In this document: piece by piece, positions 22,322 to 32,617 of the stretch
How the letters are laid out: each line of letters begins with the position of its first letter
How positions within the stretch are numbered: the first letter of the stretch is position 1
Assembly: GCA_027491785.1 (NCBI GenBank)
Contig: JAOZGJ010000079.1
Coordinates: 1 to 44,222 of the forward strand
Length of the DNA stretch: 44,222 bases
Direction of reading: 5' to 3'
Source: Thermoproteota archaeon
Lineage (GTDB): Archaea; Korarchaeota; Korarchaeia; Korarchaeales; Korarchaeaceae
Notes under the pieces: generated by a model
The model's input: only the letters and a program-made list of their open reading frames with translations
Told to the model about the DNA's origin: nothing
The model's database searches: none
Position numbers and translations under genes: made by a program

Positions 22322-23647
22322 TCACAGTATGGGATCGGCCTTCCTGCCAACTACTATTATGGGATCCCACACAGGAGCTAGAGGAGGAGCATAACCGACA
22401 TCTGTAAATATGAGATCGCTGCTCTTGGGTTTATATGGAAGAAGAGCTGCAGCAACATTTATTCTAGCCAAAGCTCCTTCACCTATGGCTTGAACCCCTA
22501 ATATTGTACCATCTTCATTTATCACGGCTTTTATCCAGATATCTCCCGGGTTTGGCATGTAATGAGCCTTGTTCTTTCCTTTTATCATTTCTCCCCTGAT
22601 GTTGTATCCCATTTTTCTAGCTTCAGCCTCAGTTAAGCCAGTTCCTGCTACTTCCACTCCGAAGATCCTAGCTGTCCAAGTCTTGACGGCACCCGGAAAC
22701 TCCACATTCTTTCCAGCTGCATTAGCTCCGGCTACTAATCCCATTTTATTGGCTACTTGAGCAAAGGGCATCCAGTCGGGCTTTCCAGTGACCCTGTTTA
22801 TGACTTCAGCGTTATCTCCTGCAGCATAAATGGAATCCAAGCTTGTCTGCATTCTAGAATTAACCTTAACTCCACCAGTCTCTCCTATCTTAGCCCCGGC
22901 ATCCTTCAGGAGGTCGACTGATGGCGCTATACCCGTGAAGACTAACACAAGATCTGCTTCTGTTGAAGTATCTCCTGATACTATCCTGAGACTGCTACCT
23001 GATCTCCTTATTTCCTCTACAGGCGTGCCAAAATGAAATTTCACCTCCTTTGCCAATAAATCCTTCAATATGAGACCCATATCTTCATCTAGGCTCCTTG
23101 GAAGGGGCCACTCGAAGTATTCAAAGACATGCACTTCTTTGCCAAGTCTAGCGATATTCTCAGCGAACTCTAAACCATTAAGCCCTGCTCCTATCACCGC
23201 AACTCTCTTAGCTTTAGTTAACCTCTTTTTGATCTCCTCTCCATCATCCAGGTGATGGGCAGTTAGAACACCGTCCTCATCGATCCCTGGTATTGGAAGC
23301 ATTTTCGACTTGGCGCCCGTAGCGACCACTAGGACGTCGTAGCTCAGCTCTTTAACCTCATCTCCCTTCCTGTATATTACCATCTTCTCTCTTGGATTGA
23401 TGCGCTCAGCAACAGCTTGAAGCTCCAAATTAATCCTTCTCTTCTCAATGAAGAAATTCGGAGGATAGTACATTAGATCGTCCAGTGATTTAACAACACC
23501 TCCCACATAGTAAGGAATGCCGCATAGGGCGAAACTGACATATTTCGTTCGTTCTATCACTGTTATCTCACTTTCAGGCTTATGCTTCCTTATCCTACTA
23601 GCAGCGGCCATGCCGGCAGGTCCAGCACCTATGATAACGGCCCTCAA
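22322..23647 (-). CDS. CoA-disulfide reductase / NAD(P)H-dependent flavoprotein
   Basis: Pyridine-nucleotide disulfide oxidoreductase of the CoA-disulfide reductase, NADH oxidase and NAD(P)H sulfur oxidoreductase group, 441 aa. It has FAD motif IIGAGPAGMAAA (5-16), the single redox cysteine SFALCGIPYYVGG (Cys42) in place of the CxxxxC pair, NAD(P) motif VAVIGAGLNGLEFAENIARLG, and the second FAD motif SIYAAGDNAEV. In archaeal thermophiles such enzymes reduce CoA disulfide, elemental sulfur or polysulfide. No rhodanese tail is fused. The start is TTG at 23645-23647, supported by a full GAGGTGAT ribosome binding site 3 nt upstream. Confidence 0.88.
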   Translation of the reverse strand: MRAVIIGAGPAGMAAASRIRKHKPESEITVIERTKYVSFALCGIPYYVGGVVKSLDDLMYYPPNFFIEKRRINLELQAVAERINPREKMVIYRKGDEVKELSYDVLVVATGAKSKMLPIPGIDEDGVLTAHHLDDGEEIKKRLTKAKRVAVIGAGLNGLEFAENIARLGKEVHVFEYFEWPLPRSLDEDMGLILKDLLAKEVKFHFGTPVEEIRRSGSSLRIVSGDTSTEADLVLVFTGIAPSVDLLKDAGAKIGETGGVKVNSRMQTSLDSIYAAGDNAEVINRVTGKPDWMPFAQVANKMGLVAGANAAGKNVEFPGAVKTWTARIFGVEVAGTGLTEAEARKMGYNIRGEMIKGKNKAHYMPNPGDIWIKAVINEDGTILGVQAIGEGALARINVAAALLPYKPKSSDLIFTDVGYAPPLAPVWDPIIVVGRKADPIL

Positions 23648-24933: not shown

Positions 24934-25224
24934 TTACTTACTCTTGATCCTATTTCTCCAGCTCATACTGGCTTCTATTATCTCATCTAAAGTGACTTTT
25001 TCTTCCTTGACTATCTCGGGAGAGTAATCCGCTAAAGAATCGATAAGTTCTCCTTTGCTCATTTTGCTCTCATCCAATATTATTGTTGCCCTTCGAGTGA
25101 AGCCGTTGACGAAAACTCTGTATACTGCTAGGTTACTTGCCAAGTTGTACTGCAGCTTGGATCCCTCCTCCGAAGTTAAGGCAGGAAGTTTAAGCTCTAA
25201 TCTTAGGAGCTCCTTTTTCTCCAT
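24934..25224 (-). CDS. Small protein downstream of the tetraether synthase, unknown function
   Basis: 96 aa, not recognised. Hydrophobic and charged patches suggest a compact beta-alpha-beta-beta-alpha-beta fold like heavy-metal-associated or ferredoxin-like domains: strand LRLELKLP, helix SEEGSKLQYNLASNL, strands VYRVFVNGFTRRATIILDES, helix KGELIDSLADYS, then a basic helix ending SWRNRIKSK. There is no CxxC metal motif, so metal binding is unlikely. It follows the radical SAM gene by 62 bp on the same strand and has its own GGGAGAGAG ribosome binding site, so it is probably cotranscribed and may act with it. Confidence 0.6.
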   Translation of the reverse strand: MEKKELLRLELKLPALTSEEGSKLQYNLASNLAVYRVFVNGFTRRATIILDESKMSKGELIDSLADYSPEIVKEEKVTLDEIIEASMSWRNRIKSK

Positions 25225-25286: not shown

Positions 25287-28200
25287 CTAACTACTCTCAA
25301 AGTAGTTCTTTAGCTCCAAGTAAGTCTTCCTATACAGCTCGCTTTCCCTTATTTTCTCAATGAATTCCTTGCTTCTGAAGTATTTGTCCTTTCTATAATC
25401 CCAGTCAGGATGTAGCTTCTTCCATTCATCCCAAGAGTAGCTAAACTGAGCTTGAACCTTATCCCTATACAGCTCAGGTATCACGTTAAATGCGCAGAAG
25501 GGGACTATCCTTCCATCGGGCATGGAATAGTGAATAACGCACCTCTCAACCCTCTCAACGTCGTAGTTGTACTCGTCTTGGAAATGCATCATTCCTATGA
25601 AGAGGGTTTTCCTGTGAAACTCTCCTAAGGCTTCATATGTACCTCTGGCGAAGGCGTTCTCCACAAGCCTGAGAACGCTTAAACTCTTGGGAGCGTATTT
25701 GGGATCGTAGAAGCTCCTGAATTTAAGAAATATCTCGCTTCCGACTTTTAACTTGCTCAGCTTACCCAAACGCTTCCATTTCTTGAGCTCATCTGCCTTC
25801 TTATCGAGGAACTCAGCGAACCCATCGACGTCTATGAACCTCGTAATCGGAATCACCCTACTGCCATCCAAGAAGACATATGTAGCAGCCCCGCAAGCGA
25901 AGTGTGAGGTCATGTAGTACCTCTTATCAGCGAAGGCCTCGAAGAATCTAGCTATATGACCAGCTATAGGCACTGGGTACCAATCATCCCTCGCAATAGC
26001 TCCATTCGTCTGTTCTTCTATCTTCTTAATAGCTCCAGCTATTGTTATCCTGAACATCTGCCTCTCCCTCTTAGGAACCCTTCCCACCATGGACAGGGGT
26101 TGTATGTTGACCCCCCTGACGATGTCCAGGTGATTCAATCCAAAGTTTATTATCGCACCCAGTTCATGGTCGTTGACATTTCTAACGGCAGTAGGAACGA
26201 GAACTATGCCTGGACCACCGGCCTTTCTCACATTCTCGAATATTAGAGGGATTTCCCAATGGTTCTTCCAGTTGGTCTGGGGGGTCATGCCATCGTAGCT
26301 TAGGTAAAGGGTGTTCACCCCTACTTCCCTTATCTTTCTCGCAAGTTCGGGGTCAAACGCTAATTTTATCCCATCAGTATTCAGCTGCACATGGTCATAG
26401 CCCTCTTCCTTAGCGATCTTCAATATCTCTATGAGATCATCCCTTAATGTTGGCTCGCCTCCAGTGAACTGTATCGCGTTCGCTCCTATATCTTGCTCCC
26501 TCTTAGCGTTTCTCAACATCATCCTTATTTGATCTAGAGTGGGTTCGTAGATGGGTTGCCCCTCCTTGGCATAGAAGAAGCAGTTGCTCACGAGAAATCC
26601 ATCTCCGGCTATAAAGGAGTGCCCATCGTTTTCTACCTCGAGGTCATAGACGTAACCATCATAATCCTCTTCTGATATCTCTTCAACTACGTCGACGTAA
26701 AAGTCATTGATCCTCTTTATCCTTGGGTTCTTCCTCGTGTCAAGATCGCCAAGCCTCTCCTCATGCTCTTTCCTCAGCTCAAGCATTTCAGTTAATCTCA
26801 ACATATCGTTACCAGATATGTAGAGCTTGTATAGATCGTGGTTTGCCCCCTTCATTTTCTCTTTTTTAACCTCGTAAACCCTCGTAAACACTCCAAGTGA
26901 AGCTAGGAGGTATATCATGTCCCTGATGAGACTCCTTGAGACACTTGCATATCCTATGTTCAGATGCCTCTTCCCCCTGACCACGTATCCATCACCATTA
27001 AAGAGACCACTAAGAAGGGCAAGCTTCACATCAGGCGGGAAGTTCAAGAACTGTCTTGGGTTCCTCTTGTTCTCCGCTTTCTCTGGAATTCCTAAGACGT
27101 ACTTGAATACAGCTCTCATAAGCCTGCTACCGATCACTATCTGCCTCGCTTTCCCCTCCCATTCAAGTAAGCTGTAGGGGAGATTGAGGTTCTCAAGAAT
27201 CGAGACTATCTCATCCTCCACATCATCATGGGAAACTGTTATCCTAAGATCCTTGTCCGTATAGTTCCCATCGGCAATAAAGTATCCAATGAGCTTAGCG
27301 AGTTCCGGTGTTATTTTCAATTTTGAAGGTATCTCATGACTAGTTGCATCTCTACCAAGCCTGAAGTTTCCTTCAGCGTCCCCTTTAGCATCTAGCTCGT
27401 AGAATGCCTTGAGGGGCATCGAATCCCTGTGCTTCCATTGATAGATCAAGTCTCCATATCTTCCCTTCAATGGACCTAGATCAAGATCACTTATTCCTCT
27501 AACATAAATTTTCTCTTTCTCATCATCGGGAATTTCTTTAAATGCCTCGAGGAGATCTATCTCGTCAAGGGAGCCATCATGTTTAAAGTTCCACAGGAGA
27601 ACGAGTTCATTCCCGACTTTAATCTCATCGGCCCTCCTCTTCACAAGTTCTCCGTTCTCATATACGAAGAACTTGTGTTCCGGAGTTGTCTGTATCTCCC
27701 TTCCCGTATGGGTCTTAATCCTGAGGATCTTGCCTTTATGCCTCCTGCGCAGGAATTTCGTGACCTTCGTCCATTTGGCCTCTCCGTCATTGAACGTGAG
27801 GACGTAAAGGTCGTGAGGTATCGAGTATTCCCCTTTGAATCCCCCTATCTCAACTTTATTCTCAAAAGCAAAGCCCCCTGCAATCTCCTCAAACTTGGCA
27901 ATCATCGTGGATGTGCCGAGTTTAAATAAAGCCTCCTCATTTCCGGGGAAGCAGTACCAACAGGAGAGGTTACATCTATTCGTCAGAACTATATTAAGGA
28001 GGCTGGTATGAGAGCGGTGCCTAAGGCAGAGGCCGCAGTCGAATGGGCAGTTAACTCCTGTGTTCTCAACGTTATAGCTAGAGAGTTTCCATTCATATGC
28101 CCATTTCATGAATTTCTTGAATAAATAGGCGTCTTCGTAGTAGACCTCGGTTATTAGTCCTTCAGGACACTTCTTAGCGAGCCATATTTTGCCTTTCTCC

Positions 28201-28412
28201 TCCCAAACCAGTGATTGAACGATCTTCCTGCTCTCTGGACAGAGTGAGAAGGTCTTGTAAGGTAAACCAGATTTATAACCATAGTTAACGTTCTTAAGCC
28301 TCTCCTCCAATTCCTCTTCAGTCATTTTGGGATATTCTATTACCTCGCGAACGTGTTTTGATGCCTGAGCGAACTCCTTCTCGCCAGTGGGTATCTCTTC
28401 AAGAGCTTCCAT
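25287..28412 (-). CDS. tes: Radical SAM tetraether lipid synthase-like protein, interrupted by an intein
   Basis: Precursor of about 1041 aa; the mature protein after splicing is about 584 aa. The exteins match the COG1964 (MJ0619/Tes) group. An extra cysteine set is in CPFDCGLCLRHRSHT, followed by TNRCNLSCWY, the intein, then CFFYAKEGQP. Splicing restores the CX3CX2C radical-SAM motif (CNLSCWYC). FTGGEPTLRDD, NTDGIKLAFDPELARKI, VRGVNIQPLSMVGRVP and Cys-containing C-terminal segments follow. Tes joins two archaeol tails to make tetraether (GDGT) membrane lipids; the related GMGT bridge-forming enzymes are an alternative. Start ATG 28412 is preferred over the GTG at 28421, because GTGAT lies 4 nt before it. 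The intein at the catalytic cysteine is the most unusual point in this window. Confidence 0.82.
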   Translation of the reverse strand: MEALEEIPTGEKEFAQASKHVREVIEYPKMTEEELEERLKNVNYGYKSGLPYKTFSLCPESRKIVQSLVWEEKGKIWLAKKCPEGLITEVYYEDAYLFKKFMKWAYEWKLSSYNVENTGVNCPFDCGLCLRHRSHTSLLNIVLTNRCNLSCWYCFPGNEEALFKLGTSTMIAKFEEIAGGFAFENKVEIGGFKGEYSIPHDLYVLTFNDGEAKWTKVTKFLRRRHKGKILRIKTHTGREIQTTPEHKFFVYENGELVKRRADEIKVGNELVLLWNFKHDGSLDEIDLLEAFKEIPDDEKEKIYVRGISDLDLGPLKGRYGDLIYQWKHRDSMPLKAFYELDAKGDAEGNFRLGRDATSHEIPSKLKITPELAKLIGYFIADGNYTDKDLRITVSHDDVEDEIVSILENLNLPYSLLEWEGKARQIVIGSRLMRAVFKYVLGIPEKAENKRNPRQFLNFPPDVKLALLSGLFNGDGYVVRGKRHLNIGYASVSRSLIRDMIYLLASLGVFTRVYEVKKEKMKGANHDLYKLYISGNDMLRLTEMLELRKEHEERLGDLDTRKNPRIKRINDFYVDVVEEISEEDYDGYVYDLEVENDGHSFIAGDGFLVSNCFFYAKEGQPIYEPTLDQIRMMLRNAKREQDIGANAIQFTGGEPTLRDDLIEILKIAKEEGYDHVQLNTDGIKLAFDPELARKIREVGVNTLYLSYDGMTPQTNWKNHWEIPLIFENVRKAGGPGIVLVPTAVRNVNDHELGAIINFGLNHLDIVRGVNIQPLSMVGRVPKRERQMFRITIAGAIKKIEEQTNGAIARDDWYPVPIAGHIARFFEAFADKRYYMTSHFACGAATYVFLDGSRVIPITRFIDVDGFAEFLDKKADELKKWKRLGKLSKLKVGSEIFLKFRSFYDPKYAPKSLSVLRLVENAFARGTYEALGEFHRKTLFIGMMHFQDEYNYDVERVERCVIHYSMPDGRIVPFCAFNVIPELYRDKVQAQFSYSWDEWKKLHPDWDYRKDKYFRSKEFIEKIRESELYRKTYLELKNYFESS
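26583..27953 (-). mobile_element. LAGLIDADG intein in the tetraether synthase gene
   Basis: In-frame 457-aa insertion. It begins with Cys (CFPGNEEALFK, block A). Block B is TTPEHKFF (Thr90, His93 of the intein). It has two dodecapeptide endonuclease motifs, LIGYFIADGNY (220-231) and LLSGLFNGDGYV (313-324), with their acidic residues intact. It ends with block F/G VYDLEVENDGHSFIAG followed by FLVSN; the next residue is extein Cys. The penultimate residue is Ser rather than the usual His, a known variant. Both splice-junction cysteines and the terminal Asn are present, so splicing should be possible, and the endonuclease looks intact, suggesting recent homing. Confidence 0.93.
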
Positions 28413-28535
28413 TTTTATCACTACCTATAGGATAACTAGGAATGTAAAAAATCTAATGGTTGCGTAAGATGTACATTATGATGAGTTCATGAAAGAGATG
28501 AGGAGAATAGCGATGCATGGGATACCATTATCGAT

Positions 28536-29945: not shown

Positions 29946-30407
29946 ATGAGCGTAGTAGAGGAAGAGGTAACTCATCAAGAAAAATCAGTTAGGAAAGAGA
30001 GGATTGCCTTTCCAGTCCATGATCATATGGACTTGAATGATGAACTATTTGAACATTTCGGTCATGCTCCAGCTTATCTATTGGTAGATGTATCGGAAGA
30101 CGGCAAGGTGATACGCACAGAGACTCTCGATAATATCTACCGAGAGGAGCATGGACCAGGCGTTGTCCCATCTCTACTCGCCAATGCAGGGGTTAACACC
30201 TTGATATGTAGAGGTATGGGGAGGAAAGCTGTGGATTACTTCCAGCAATATGGCATATCTGTGATAATGGGGGCCTATGGGAAGGTGAAGGATGTGTTGG
30301 ACTTATATCTATCCGGCCGCTTAACTTCTATAGAGTATAGGCCCAGAGATAGGTGGAAGGAGGAACATGAATTTAGAGGGGAAGGAGAGTACGAGGAGGA
30401 AGGCTGA
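29946..30407 (+). CDS. NifX/ORP-like protein (third copy), operon leader
   Basis: COG1433 domain of 153 aa. After a charged N-terminal tail (about 18 residues) come RIAFPVHDHMDLNDELFEHFGHAPAYLLVD, the G-rich GPGVVPSLLANAGVNTLICRGMGRKAVDYF, and KVKDVLDLYLSGRL, ending in an acidic tail (EFRGEGEYEEEG). It contains more His than the other two copies (HDH, FGH), which could bind metal. It is the first gene of a tight operon with a TetR regulator and an ABC transporter, an unusual setting for this family. It may be a metal or metal-sulfur binding or sensing partner of that system; this is inferred from context only. Confidence 0.82.
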   Translation: MSVVEEEVTHQEKSVRKERIAFPVHDHMDLNDELFEHFGHAPAYLLVDVSEDGKVIRTETLDNIYREEHGPGVVPSLLANAGVNTLICRGMGRKAVDYFQQYGISVIMGAYGKVKDVLDLYLSGRLTSIEYRPRDRWKEEHEFRGEGEYEEEG

Positions 30408-30951
30408 GTCTCCTCATGAAGTGAGGGAAAGGATAATAAGGGGGGCTATGAAGATATTCGCCAAGCAGGGATTCTTCAAGACCCCAGTTCATCTCATAGC
30501 TATGGAGTCTGGAGTCTCGAAGGGTTTGATCTTCTGGTACTTCTCATCAAAAGATGAGCTGATTCTGGAAGTAGCTAGAAGGAGCCTCCCTCTAGATCTG
30601 ATGAAAGAATGCCTAGGAAGGGAGCTTGAAGGGAGGAGGCTCCTAAAATGCATTGGAGAGAAATACCTAGATAAGTATGAAAGCGATGAAATGAGACAGC
30701 TTCTTATACATACGATGGCCATCGAGGCGTTATATCCGGAGGTTAGGAGGAACATTAAGGAGTTATGTGAGAACCTCCTGAAGGAGGCGGCTAAGAGGGC
30801 ATTCGGTGACGAGTCAAAGGAATCCGTAATCAGGATGAGAGGTTTCTTCGGTTCCCTACTTTGCTATGTTTTGAGGCCACCGAGCGATATAAGCAGCGAT
30901 GAGTATTTGAATGGAGCCATAGATCTAGTATGGAGAAGCGAGGCTGCATGA
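30367..30951 (+). CDS. TetR-family transcriptional regulator
   Basis: TetR/AcrR repressor of 194 aa. It has a typical helix-turn-helix: RERIIRGAMKIFAKQGFFKTPVHLIAMESGVSKGLIFWYFSSKDEL (residues about 20-65), then an all-helical ligand-binding domain without recognisable specificity. Its start overlaps the end of the NifX-like gene by 41 bp, supported by a strong AAGGAGGAAC ribosome binding site inside that gene. It probably represses its own operon through the palindrome at 29913-29930 and releases it on binding a small ligand exported by the ABC transporter. Confidence 0.9.
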   Translation: MNLEGKESTRRKAESPHEVRERIIRGAMKIFAKQGFFKTPVHLIAMESGVSKGLIFWYFSSKDELILEVARRSLPLDLMKECLGRELEGRRLLKCIGEKYLDKYESDEMRQLLIHTMAIEALYPEVRRNIKELCENLLKEAAKRAFGDESKESVIRMRGFFGSLLCYVLRPPSDISSDEYLNGAIDLVWRSEAA

Positions 30952-31865
30952 AACCGATAGAAGCTCGTGATTTAGAGAAGAGCTTTGGGAAAGTAAGAGC
31001 CGTAAATGGTGTGAGCTTGTACGTAGATAAGGAGGAGATATTCGGCCTACTCGGACCTAATGGTGCCGGAAAAACAACCACCATTAGGATGATAACTGGT
31101 ATAATACCTCCTGACAGGGGGAGTGCCCTCATTATGGGGCATGATGTCCTTAGGGAGCCTATGAAAGCTAAAGCCCATATAGGAGTAGTCCCTGAAATAG
31201 CAGCTCCTTATGTAGATTTGAGTGCTTGGGATAATCTAATGCTCGCTGGGAGGATATATCACGTTAGCGATCGTGAAAGGAAAACTAGAGCCAAGGAATT
31301 GCTGGAGGTATTGGGTTTAAGCGAAGCTGCACACAGGAAGGTCAAGGGATTTTCTAAGGGAATGAGGCAGAGGCTCCTGTTAGCGATGGCCCTCATCAGC
31401 GACCCCGATATACTAATCTTGGATGAGCCTACCTCAGGACTAGACGTAATAAGTGCTAGGATGGTTAGATCAATCATCCTAGCTCTTAGAAGGGAGGGCA
31501 AATCCCTCCTCCTCACGACCCATAATATAGAGGAAGCTGGTATGCTATGCGACCGCATAGCGATAATCAATAAGGGCAAAATAATAGCTGAGGGAAGCCC
31601 AGAAGATCTGAAGATAAGCTTTGAAGAATTCAGAAATATTAGAGTAGTTTTGGAGGAGGATCTGGGCGGTATAGAGAGGGCTTTGGAGGGCTTTGATGTG
31701 CTAATTCAGGGAAGGAAGGTATCCATCATGTGCAGGCAGGACGAGGTCGATGAAGCCATTCGCAAGATTGTAAAGCTGGCTGAGTCCTCAGGAGTGAGGA
31801 TAAAGGAAATCCAGACAGCAGGTCCAAGCTTTGAGGATATATTCATGAAGATTATAGGGAAGTGA
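30948..31865 (+). CDS. ABC-2 type transporter ATP-binding protein
   Basis: ABC exporter ATPase of 305 aa. It has Walker A GPNGAGKTTT, signature KGFSKGMRQRLLLAMAL, Walker B ILILDEPTSGLD and the H-loop LTTHNIEEA, then a C-terminal regulatory domain (about 215-305) as in DrrA/NatA-type ATPases. The start at 30948 is chosen since its ATG overlaps the TetR stop (ATGA); an in-frame ATG at 30930 lies 18 nt earlier. It works with the permease encoded next, also overlapping. Confidence 0.92.
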   Translation: MKPIEARDLEKSFGKVRAVNGVSLYVDKEEIFGLLGPNGAGKTTTIRMITGIIPPDRGSALIMGHDVLREPMKAKAHIGVVPEIAAPYVDLSAWDNLMLAGRIYHVSDRERKTRAKELLEVLGLSEAAHRKVKGFSKGMRQRLLLAMALISDPDILILDEPTSGLDVISARMVRSIILALRREGKSLLLTTHNIEEAGMLCDRIAIINKGKIIAEGSPEDLKISFEEFRNIRVVLEEDLGGIERALEGFDVLIQGRKVSIMCRQDEVDEAIRKIVKLAESSGVRIKEIQTAGPSFEDIFMKIIGK

Positions 31866-32617
31866 GGGATGTGAGGACAGGTAATTGGAAGCCTTACCTC
31901 GAGAGCGTCCTAGCATTATCAGTGAAAGATGCCAAGATTTATTTCCTGAAGGGACCTGTAGTCATATTAGGTTTGTTGATGCCATTTTTCCTCTGGCTCG
32001 CCTTCGCGGTGGGAAATAGAGTCACTACGAGCGGCATTCCTACACTAATATCGATCACCGCTTTCTTCACAGCTTCAGCAGTTACTCCAGTTGTGATACC
32101 TTGGGAAACCAGACAAAGATCACTTGAAATGCTCTTAACTGGACCAGTAACCATGGGGATGATCATACTAGGGGACTCTATAGCCTCTTCTCTCTTAGGG
32201 ATCTTGATCTCCCTTGTATTGATTGCGATAGGATTTCTGCTAGGAGTTGGAGCCAACATGCTTGTTTTGATACCAGCCCTCGTGATAGCTTCCTTCTGCT
32301 ATTCCTTCCTAGGACTGATCTTCTCTTCAGTTCCCTCTGACGTTCCCGCAGATGCCATAATGCTAGCAAGCGCTGTAAGGCTACCCTTGATCTTCATTAG
32401 CGGCATATTCATTCCCCTCGGCAACTTACCTTCTCCCCTCTTATGGATAGCCCTTTTATCTCCTCTGACCTACTTCGCAGATGTGGTTAATCTATCATAC
32501 TATGGGACTTCCTTCCTACCTCCGATCCTAGATATGGCTGCGTTGACTTCCTTCGCCCTGCTATTCCTCTACCTTTCTATATGGCTGAACAGAAAGGCTA
32601 TGCTTAGAAGACTATAG
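31862..32617 (+). CDS. ABC-2 type transporter permease
   Basis: Integral membrane protein of 251 aa with six helices and the ABC-2 layout: a cytosolic N-terminal amphipathic segment (WKPYLESVLALSVKDAKIYF), helices 1-2, the loop ITAFFTASAVTPVVIPWETRQRSLEMLLTGPVT as cytoplasmic coupling element, then four helices with ISGIFIPLGNLPSPLLWIALLSPLTYFADVV. It starts with GTG overlapping the ATPase stop (GTGA). The substrate is unknown; drugs, lipids or sodium are typical of this group, and TetR control favours a toxic small molecule. Confidence 0.88.
   Translation: MRDVRTGNWKPYLESVLALSVKDAKIYFLKGPVVILGLLMPFFLWLAFAVGNRVTTSGIPTLISITAFFTASAVTPVVIPWETRQRSLEMLLTGPVTMGMIILGDSIASSLLGILISLVLIAIGFLLGVGANMLVLIPALVIASFCYSFLGLIFSSVPSDVPADAIMLASAVRLPLIFISGIFIPLGNLPSPLLWIALLSPLTYFADVVNLSYYGTSFLPPILDMAALTSFALLFLYLSIWLNRKAMLRRL

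Follow-up and report, generated by a model that had tools for sequence, protein, structure and literature searches.

A class 1 intein at a cluster-cysteine codon of a predicted tetraether lipid synthase in a probable Korarchaeum-genus archaeon

In this study we describe an intein that interrupts the gene of a predicted tetraether lipid synthase (Tes) in a 44,222-nucleotide stretch of archaeal DNA (hereafter the window, meaning the whole stretch). The observation of an intein in this gene is correct and known in kind. Taking the explanation as a whole, we consider it highly likely that a class 1 LAGLIDADG intein occupies the codon of the third cysteine of the CX3CX2C motif in a Thermococcales-type Tes, that homing is mainly what keeps it there, that the redox trap formed at this site is a side effect, and that tes was transferred together with a DUF3213 gene. 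Our analysis adds two things: the host of the redox-trapped intein of Pyrococcus abyssi is re-identified, very probably, as Tes, and tes, DUF3213 and the intein appear to have been transferred beyond the Thermococcales. The anatomy, family, distribution and xenology of the element were read from sequence. Genomes are cited by our own numbers, G000 being that of the window.

Structure of the precursor

The features of the precursor and of its downstream neighbour are the following:

25287..28421, minus strand: tes precursor gene, a 1044-aa ORF with a GTG start as listed (an ATG three codons later is an alternative start); NF045703, 1934.7 bits (cut-off 1700)
27954..28421, minus strand: N-extein, aa 1-156, ending in CNLSCWY (spliced extein aligned to 7TOL)
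27972..27974, minus strand: Cys150 (Cys-7), first ligand of the radical-SAM cluster (computed from the ORF; aligned to 7TOL)
27960..27962, minus strand: Cys154 (Cys-3), second cluster ligand, at the position of the redox-trap cysteine of the P. abyssi allele (computed from the ORF; excerpts of PMC3922620)
26583..27953, minus strand: intein, 457 aa, Cys1 to Asn457, precursor aa 157-613
27951..27953, minus strand: intein Cys1 (aa 157), a splicing nucleophile that stands where the third ligand belongs (invariant in 17 aligned inteins)
27675..27686, minus strand: block B, TPEH (alignment)
27261..27293, minus strand: LAGLIDADG motif 1, LIGYFIADGNY (alignment)
26982..27017, minus strand: LAGLIDADG motif 2, LLSGLFNGDGYV (alignment)
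26583..26621, minus strand: blocks F/G, HSFIAGDGFLVSN, with Ser penultimate and Asn terminal (alignment)
26580..26582, minus strand: Cys+1 (aa 614), second splicing nucleophile and, after splicing, third cluster ligand (alignment to 7TOL)
25287..26582, minus strand: C-extein, beginning with CFFYAKEG (7TOL match, E=1e-98)
24934..25224, minus strand: DUF3213 gene, 62 bp downstream of tes (neighbourhood comparison)

A preliminary description of this DNA had placed a 457-aa intein at 26583-27953, between CNLSCWY and CFFYAKEG, with both LAGLIDADG motifs present, intact splice residues and a CX3CX2C motif restored by splicing. The coordinates proved exact, as judged from the translated ORF and from the Pfam and NCBIfam matches. 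In the precursor, Pfam detects Intein_splicing (2.8e-23) and LAGLIDADG_3 (1.6e-19), its Radical_SAM match starts at profile position 14, directly past the intein, and the NCBIfam intein_Nterm match begins at aa 157. Joining the exteins in silico gives CNLSCWYCFFYAKEG, in which CNLSCWYC, with its CX3CX2C spacing, is restored. The intein alignment bears out the two LAGLIDADG motifs, both of which have acidic residues (ADG and GDG).

The features of a class 1 intein (Cys1, the TxxH of block B, the Asp and His of block F, the terminal Asn and Cys+1) are all present in the window protein, and D437 and H445 of block F are invariant across 17 aligned inteins. The description of the splice residues as intact therefore holds for Cys1, TPEH, the block-F His, the Asn and Cys+1, but not for the penultimate position, where the His that is typical, although not universal, in class 1 inteins is replaced by Ser. 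Judged from the alignment, Ser is the normal residue of this allele, since it occurs in 19/19 full-length precursors, the window included. The junction is likewise not a product of chance, as 18 other full-length precursors share it. That the penultimate Ser prevents splicing and leaves Tes inactive, a reading that draws on the missing His, is hardly credible: the same Ser is found in all 19 full-length precursors, among them that of P. abyssi, whose 'MoaA' intein splices when reduced according to excerpts of PMC10663303, and no second Tes was found in the window's assembly, which is 95.5% complete.

The host enzyme

The family model and the alignment to PDB 7TOL predict that the host protein is the tetraether synthase Tes, in agreement with the earlier proposal of a Tes-type enzyme. 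The Tes equivalog model NF045702 scores 661.1 bits against the whole window protein (cut-off 450; as a control, 3/14 named genomes were above the cut-off). Aligning the spliced extein to a characterised enzyme, 7TOL (GDGT-MAS), gave 7e-130 over query residues 53-548 (496 residues). Because CNLSCWYC of the window lies opposite the 7TOL cluster motif CNLNCPIC, Cys+1 is predicted to be the third cluster ligand, and the claim that the splicing +1 nucleophile is itself the third cluster cysteine is upheld by this alignment.

Besides the radical-SAM CX3CX2C, the window Tes has an auxiliary CX3CX2C motif (CPFDCGLC), and both the cluster and the auxiliary cysteine motifs are shared with Tes/MJ0619 (GDGT-MAS, PDB 7TOL/7TOM) over the 496 residues. 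The 7TOL chain differs in having no intein, and its N-terminal CPIC...CPEHG reads CPES...CPEG in the window. The GMGT synthase Gms, compared here through its description only, is also a radical-SAM lipid-bridging enzyme, present in some Thermococcales and others according to excerpts of PMC11186832, but the window protein exceeds the cut-off of the equivalog model for Tes. MoaA was considered as the host and rejected, since none of the three MoaA models listed reaches its cut-off (63-68 bits, with cut-offs of 231-325).

Some variation was seen at the N-terminus of Tes. Pfam Zn_ribbon_HMPTM matches window aa 55-95 (28137-28259). In Thermococcales-type Tes (window; L093, L098, L099), the CPxC and CxxHG of other Tes are replaced by CPES or CPET followed by CPEG (CPES in G282), and in this zinc-ribbon-like site one Cys and the His are altered in the 11 Thermococcales-type Tes printed and retained in the 13 others printed. 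The Tes of G084 (L097) has ~440 extra N-terminal residues in a single 976-aa ORF with an intact cluster motif, and the region G082:C63:26110-27510 is a match to Tes with an in-frame TGA.

Distribution of the intein

The Tes intein is not new in kind, as NCBIfam already holds an exception model, NF045703 ('tetraether lipid synthase Tes, intein-containing'), which the window protein passes with a match of aa 5-1041 to model positions 3-1040. The P. abyssi protein scores 2149.1 bits with this model and the G035 protein 1819.8, and 2/24 genomes of the window's family pass it (0/14 control genomes above the cut-off). The window intein is an established allele in the class 1 LAGLIDADG group, known in kind; by its full-length match the window protein belongs to the NF045703 family, with a host that we infer to be a Korarchaeum-genus archaeon.

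Among 198 archaeal genomes sampled, 135 had a Tes match (E <= 1e-80) and five of these (G000, G007, G075, G153 and G035) had the sign of the intein, that is, a match cut at position 102 together with an ORF of 1035-1054 aa. Tes matches were found in 86/94 genomes of the Thermococcales order (the order of G075), with the intein cut in 16/94, and in 54/57 genomes of the Archaeoglobales-like order (the order of G035), with the cut in 2/57; these order counts are lower bounds, since some contig-end fragments stop short of the site (e.g. G252, G254; G285, G288, G290). The name Thermococcales for the first of these orders follows from the identification of G075 as P. abyssi, described below. Taking as full-length precursors every ORF of at least 1035 aa, window included and truncated G277 excluded (n=19), the upstream junction is CNL[S/N/A]CWY followed by C and the downstream junction SN followed by CFFYA in all of them, so that Cys-7, Cys-3, Cys1, the penultimate Ser and Cys+1 occur in 19/19. 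The first LAGLIDADG acid is kept in 19/19 precursors and the second in 18/19 (G035 has GNG).

A decayed intein, with both LAGLIDADG motifs eroded and the C-terminal splice end retained, was found in G277 (L119), one of the 16 Thermococcales carriers, where tes lies near a contig end and its N-terminal part is absent from the ORF. A viral vehicle was considered and rejected, as a single scan of viral_contigs with the intein yielded no relative, and a scan of genome_contigs returned 8 distant relatives only (24-37% identity), Thermococcales inteins not being among them. When the alignment of 17/19 full-length inteins was searched against 150 genomes (E <= 1e-40), the sole non-Tes match was to a protein of G130 (5.9e-42) that is TFB-like in our reading.

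The intein of Pyrococcus abyssi and the redox trap

G075 consists of two contigs (1,765,118 and 3,444 bp), and 3,400 bases of the smaller one match NC_001773 of Pyrococcus abyssi GE5, which is plasmid pGT5, at 100% identity. This genome has 26 Radical_SAM matches, and the 1052-aa Tes ORF, whose halves account for two of them, is the only one that an intein splits; the other Radical_SAM ORFs do not exceed 605 aa, and the 605-aa ORF was inspected and has no intein. In the P. abyssi Tes precursor the junction is CNLNCWY followed by C, and Cys-3 is the second cluster ligand. Since no other intein-split radical-SAM gene was found in the P. abyssi genome and Cys-3 matches, the published 'Pab MoaA' intein is almost certainly the P. 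abyssi Tes intein, an identification based on this uniqueness and on the matching Cys-3 rather than on accession numbers. The window and P. abyssi inteins share the insertion site, Cys-3, Cys1 and the end SN followed by C, with 70% identity between the inteins and 74% between the exteins. They differ in that the P. abyssi host is named MoaA in the excerpted reviews and inferred to be Tes here, and in that the window copy is known from its sequence alone. No statement linking the MoaA intein to Tes was found in the open literature searched for tetraether/GDGT and intein, a scope outside which most subscription papers fall, and the word 'intein' is absent from the paper that identified Tes (PMC8941075).

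According to excerpts of a 2023 review (PMC10663303), a disulfide with an N-extein cysteine stops the first splicing step of the P. abyssi 'MoaA' intein when oxidised, and the intein splices when reduced. The native Cys-3/Cys1 trap is credited there, and in excerpts of PMC3922620, to Callahan et al. 2011. Both cysteines of this pair, Cys154 (-3) and Cys157 (Cys1), are predicted in the window precursor. The earlier suggestion of redox-sensitive splicing is sustained in so far as the phenomenon has been published for the P. abyssi intein, very probably the same allele, but it is not new, the trap being credited to the 2011 paper. As to its role, excerpts of a 2014 review (PMC4031507) state that conditional splicing of physiological relevance had yet to be demonstrated, and those of the 2023 review lean to protection as the role of the P. 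abyssi intein. If the 'Pab MoaA' intein is the Tes intein, then a native intein with a redox trap, known from reviews, affects the enzyme that makes membrane-spanning lipids and not molybdenum-cofactor synthesis, and the relation of splicing state to the tetraether:diether ratio is directly testable in genetically tractable Thermococcales.

The splicing chemistry is expected to be that of a canonical class 1 intein. In the window precursor, Cys1 would form a thioester at Tyr-1, Cys+1 would take over this thioester, and Asn457 would cyclise, with Ser standing in for the penultimate His. Ligation of the exteins would then re-form CNLSCWYC, and only at this point could the normal catalytic [4Fe-4S] cluster assemble. 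It is reasonable to expect that the unspliced precursor is inactive, because the third ligand is missing from the catalytic cluster before splicing. In an oxidised cell, a Cys-3/Cys1 disulfide, made possible by the location of the second cluster ligand at -3 to Cys1, would halt the first step, an effect reported for the homologue in P. abyssi. In this scheme, splicing and the redox trap are taken from the literature on that homologue; splicing in the window protein, homing activity and a physiological role are extrapolated.

The site could also act as an iron-sulfur gate, with Cys-7, Cys-3 and the intein Cys1 binding a cluster in the precursor and splicing waiting on the state of iron or of the cluster. 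The CX3CX2C spacing with Cys1 as its third cysteine, preserved in 19/19 full-length precursors, is what such a gate would use, but Cys1 is expected inside the intein fold and not in the Tes barrel, and the inhibition reported in the excerpted literature is a disulfide, which makes this explanation improbable. We give as little credence to a wider proposal, in which the surrogate CX3CX2C (Cys-7, Cys-3, Cys1) either binds [4Fe-4S] or oxidises to a disulfide, splicing senses the cofactor state of Tes, and the spread of the intein across Thermococcales, Archaeoglobales-like and Korarchaeum-genus archaea is that of a portable redox/iron gate on tetraether formation.

Mobility of the intein

Synonymous divergence suggests that the histories of intein and extein are partly decoupled. 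The extein dS of 0.41 contrasts with an intein dS of 0.03 in the pair G266/G270, and the same extein value with an intein dS of 1.15 in G207/G216. Near-identical inteins lie inside more divergent exteins in G270, G266 and G265 (L116, L117, L120), which can be taken as a sign of recent intein transfer. Three pairs are roughly concordant (extein/intein dS of 1.49/1.00 in G203/G075, 0.79/0.91 in G208/G227 and 0.10/0.11 in G246/G241), suggesting that inteins are often co-inherited with their exteins; the remaining intein-bearing pairs in this comparison, G000/G007 included, are saturated.

On a tree of 38 exteins that we chose (19 with and 19 without intein, comprising all full-length carriers and part of the rest), the intein state changes at least 13 times. 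No intein was seen in G198, which has the nearest extein outside the genus, or in its two congeners. The intein-free copy of G009 is the sister of the intein-bearing G007 (100/95), and therefore loss or repeated gain has occurred.

In the intein tree, G000 and G007 are weak sisters (65/65). The distance between their inteins, relative to their mean distance to 13 Thermococcales inteins, is 0.99 (95% interval 0.87-1.11), and the same ratio for their exteins is 0.47 (0.38-0.57). Separate gain or fast change may underlie this discord. We do not press the case for independent gain in G000 and G007, given the saturated dS, the weak sister relationship, an intein:extein tree-distance ratio (2.38) inside the 0.32-5.72 spread of the 23 pairs listed, and the similar decoupling found between Thermococcales clades.

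The patchy occurrence and the mobility of the intein favour a selfish element, and where the intein is present, absent or transferred is what a mobile one would show, its redox trap arising as a by-product of the insertion site. Such an element would persist chiefly by homing into a conserved site, and its redox trap would be a side effect that the cell may or may not use. It has to be weighed against an adaptive switch, in which the intein persists for its effect on Tes: it would keep this oxygen-labile enzyme inactive as long as the cell is not reduced, coupling tetraether formation to redox. The Cys-3/Cys1 disulfide of the P. abyssi allele, described in excerpts of PMC10663303 and PMC3922620, is in keeping with a switch, as is the purifying selection on the intein (dN 0.033/dS 1.0 in G203/G075 and 0.079/0.91 in G208/G227), although the need to splice would also yield such selection. 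Nevertheless, no intein split was seen in 70 of the 86 Thermococcales-order genomes that match Tes (a few of the 70 being uninformative fragments), and both the repeated gains or losses on the 38 chosen exteins and the intein-free close copy in G009 speak against a switch, which we consider unlikely.

Origin of the tes gene

The window Tes is 86.7% identical to that of G007 and 88.1% to the intein-free copy of G009, 71-79% to sampled Thermococcales, 68-69% to G035 and G297, and only 42-48% to the native Tes of sampled genomes of its family. A tree of 74 exteins nests it in the Thermococcales-type clade beside G198 (99/99), far from the native Tes of its genus, and the grouping with G198 has a support of 92/97 in the 38-row tree. 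Among 16 genomes of the same genus, G000 and G007 have only the Thermococcales type, G009 has both types and 12 have only the native one (six placed on the 74-extein tree and six assigned from their scores and ORF lengths); in G015 (70% complete) no Tes was found at E <= 1e-60. The window gene is the only Tes found in its assembly (95.5% complete, 6.96% estimated contamination). On these trees and identities, the window tes is a Thermococcales-type xenolog, unlike the native Tes of its genus.

The DUF3213 gene adjoins tes in the window, in G007, in G009 and in 3/3 Thermococcales loci tested (G075, G153, G266); it was not found beside tes in the two Archaeoglobales-like loci tested (G035, G297). 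In the window's family it occurs in 3/24 genomes, exactly the three with a Thermococcales-type Tes, and apparently it was transferred along with tes. The pair would have passed from a Thermococcales-type donor to an ancestor within the Korarchaeum genus.

Contamination of a Korarchaeum-genus bin by a Thermococcales contig might be suspected from the 71-79% identity of the Tes to sampled Thermococcales, from the contamination estimate of the assembly, and from a neighbour gene (22322-23647) whose best match is only 31% identical in G004, a genome of the window's genus, and 32% in G020. However, this gene is 85% identical in G007, 75% in G010, 69% in G009, 63% in G003 and 58% in G014, against 41-43% in four Thermococcales tested. 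Most genes of the window flank are common to G007, the direct neighbours compared being mostly 68-88% identical, and the tes copy of G009 adjoins a Korarchaeal gene (93% identical in G011, with no match in five Thermococcales tested). Because most of the flank is shared with G007, the neighbour gene is Korarchaeal and the G009 copy also has a Korarchaeal neighbour, contamination is extremely improbable, and transfer of tes with DUF3213 remains our preferred explanation. The flanks of the window and G007 are not identical: no counterpart of the 28536-29648 gene was found next to the G007 tes, and relative to the window G007 has ~5 kb extra between DUF3213 and the UbiA gene.

The window is a further example of a gene for a lipid enzyme that has passed, together with its intein, from one deep archaeal lineage to another. 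One Archaeoglobales-like genus (G297, G035; L130, L096) also carries an intein-bearing Tes of Thermococcales type, with 68-69% identity to that of the window, and eight other sampled Archaeoglobales-like genomes have a different Tes, 48-53% identical to the window. The Tes of G297 and G035 perhaps represents a second transfer. At 29946-32617, the window encodes a Nitro_FeMo-Co domain protein, a TetR-type regulator and an ABC transporter pair, as overlapping genes whose order is also found in G007.
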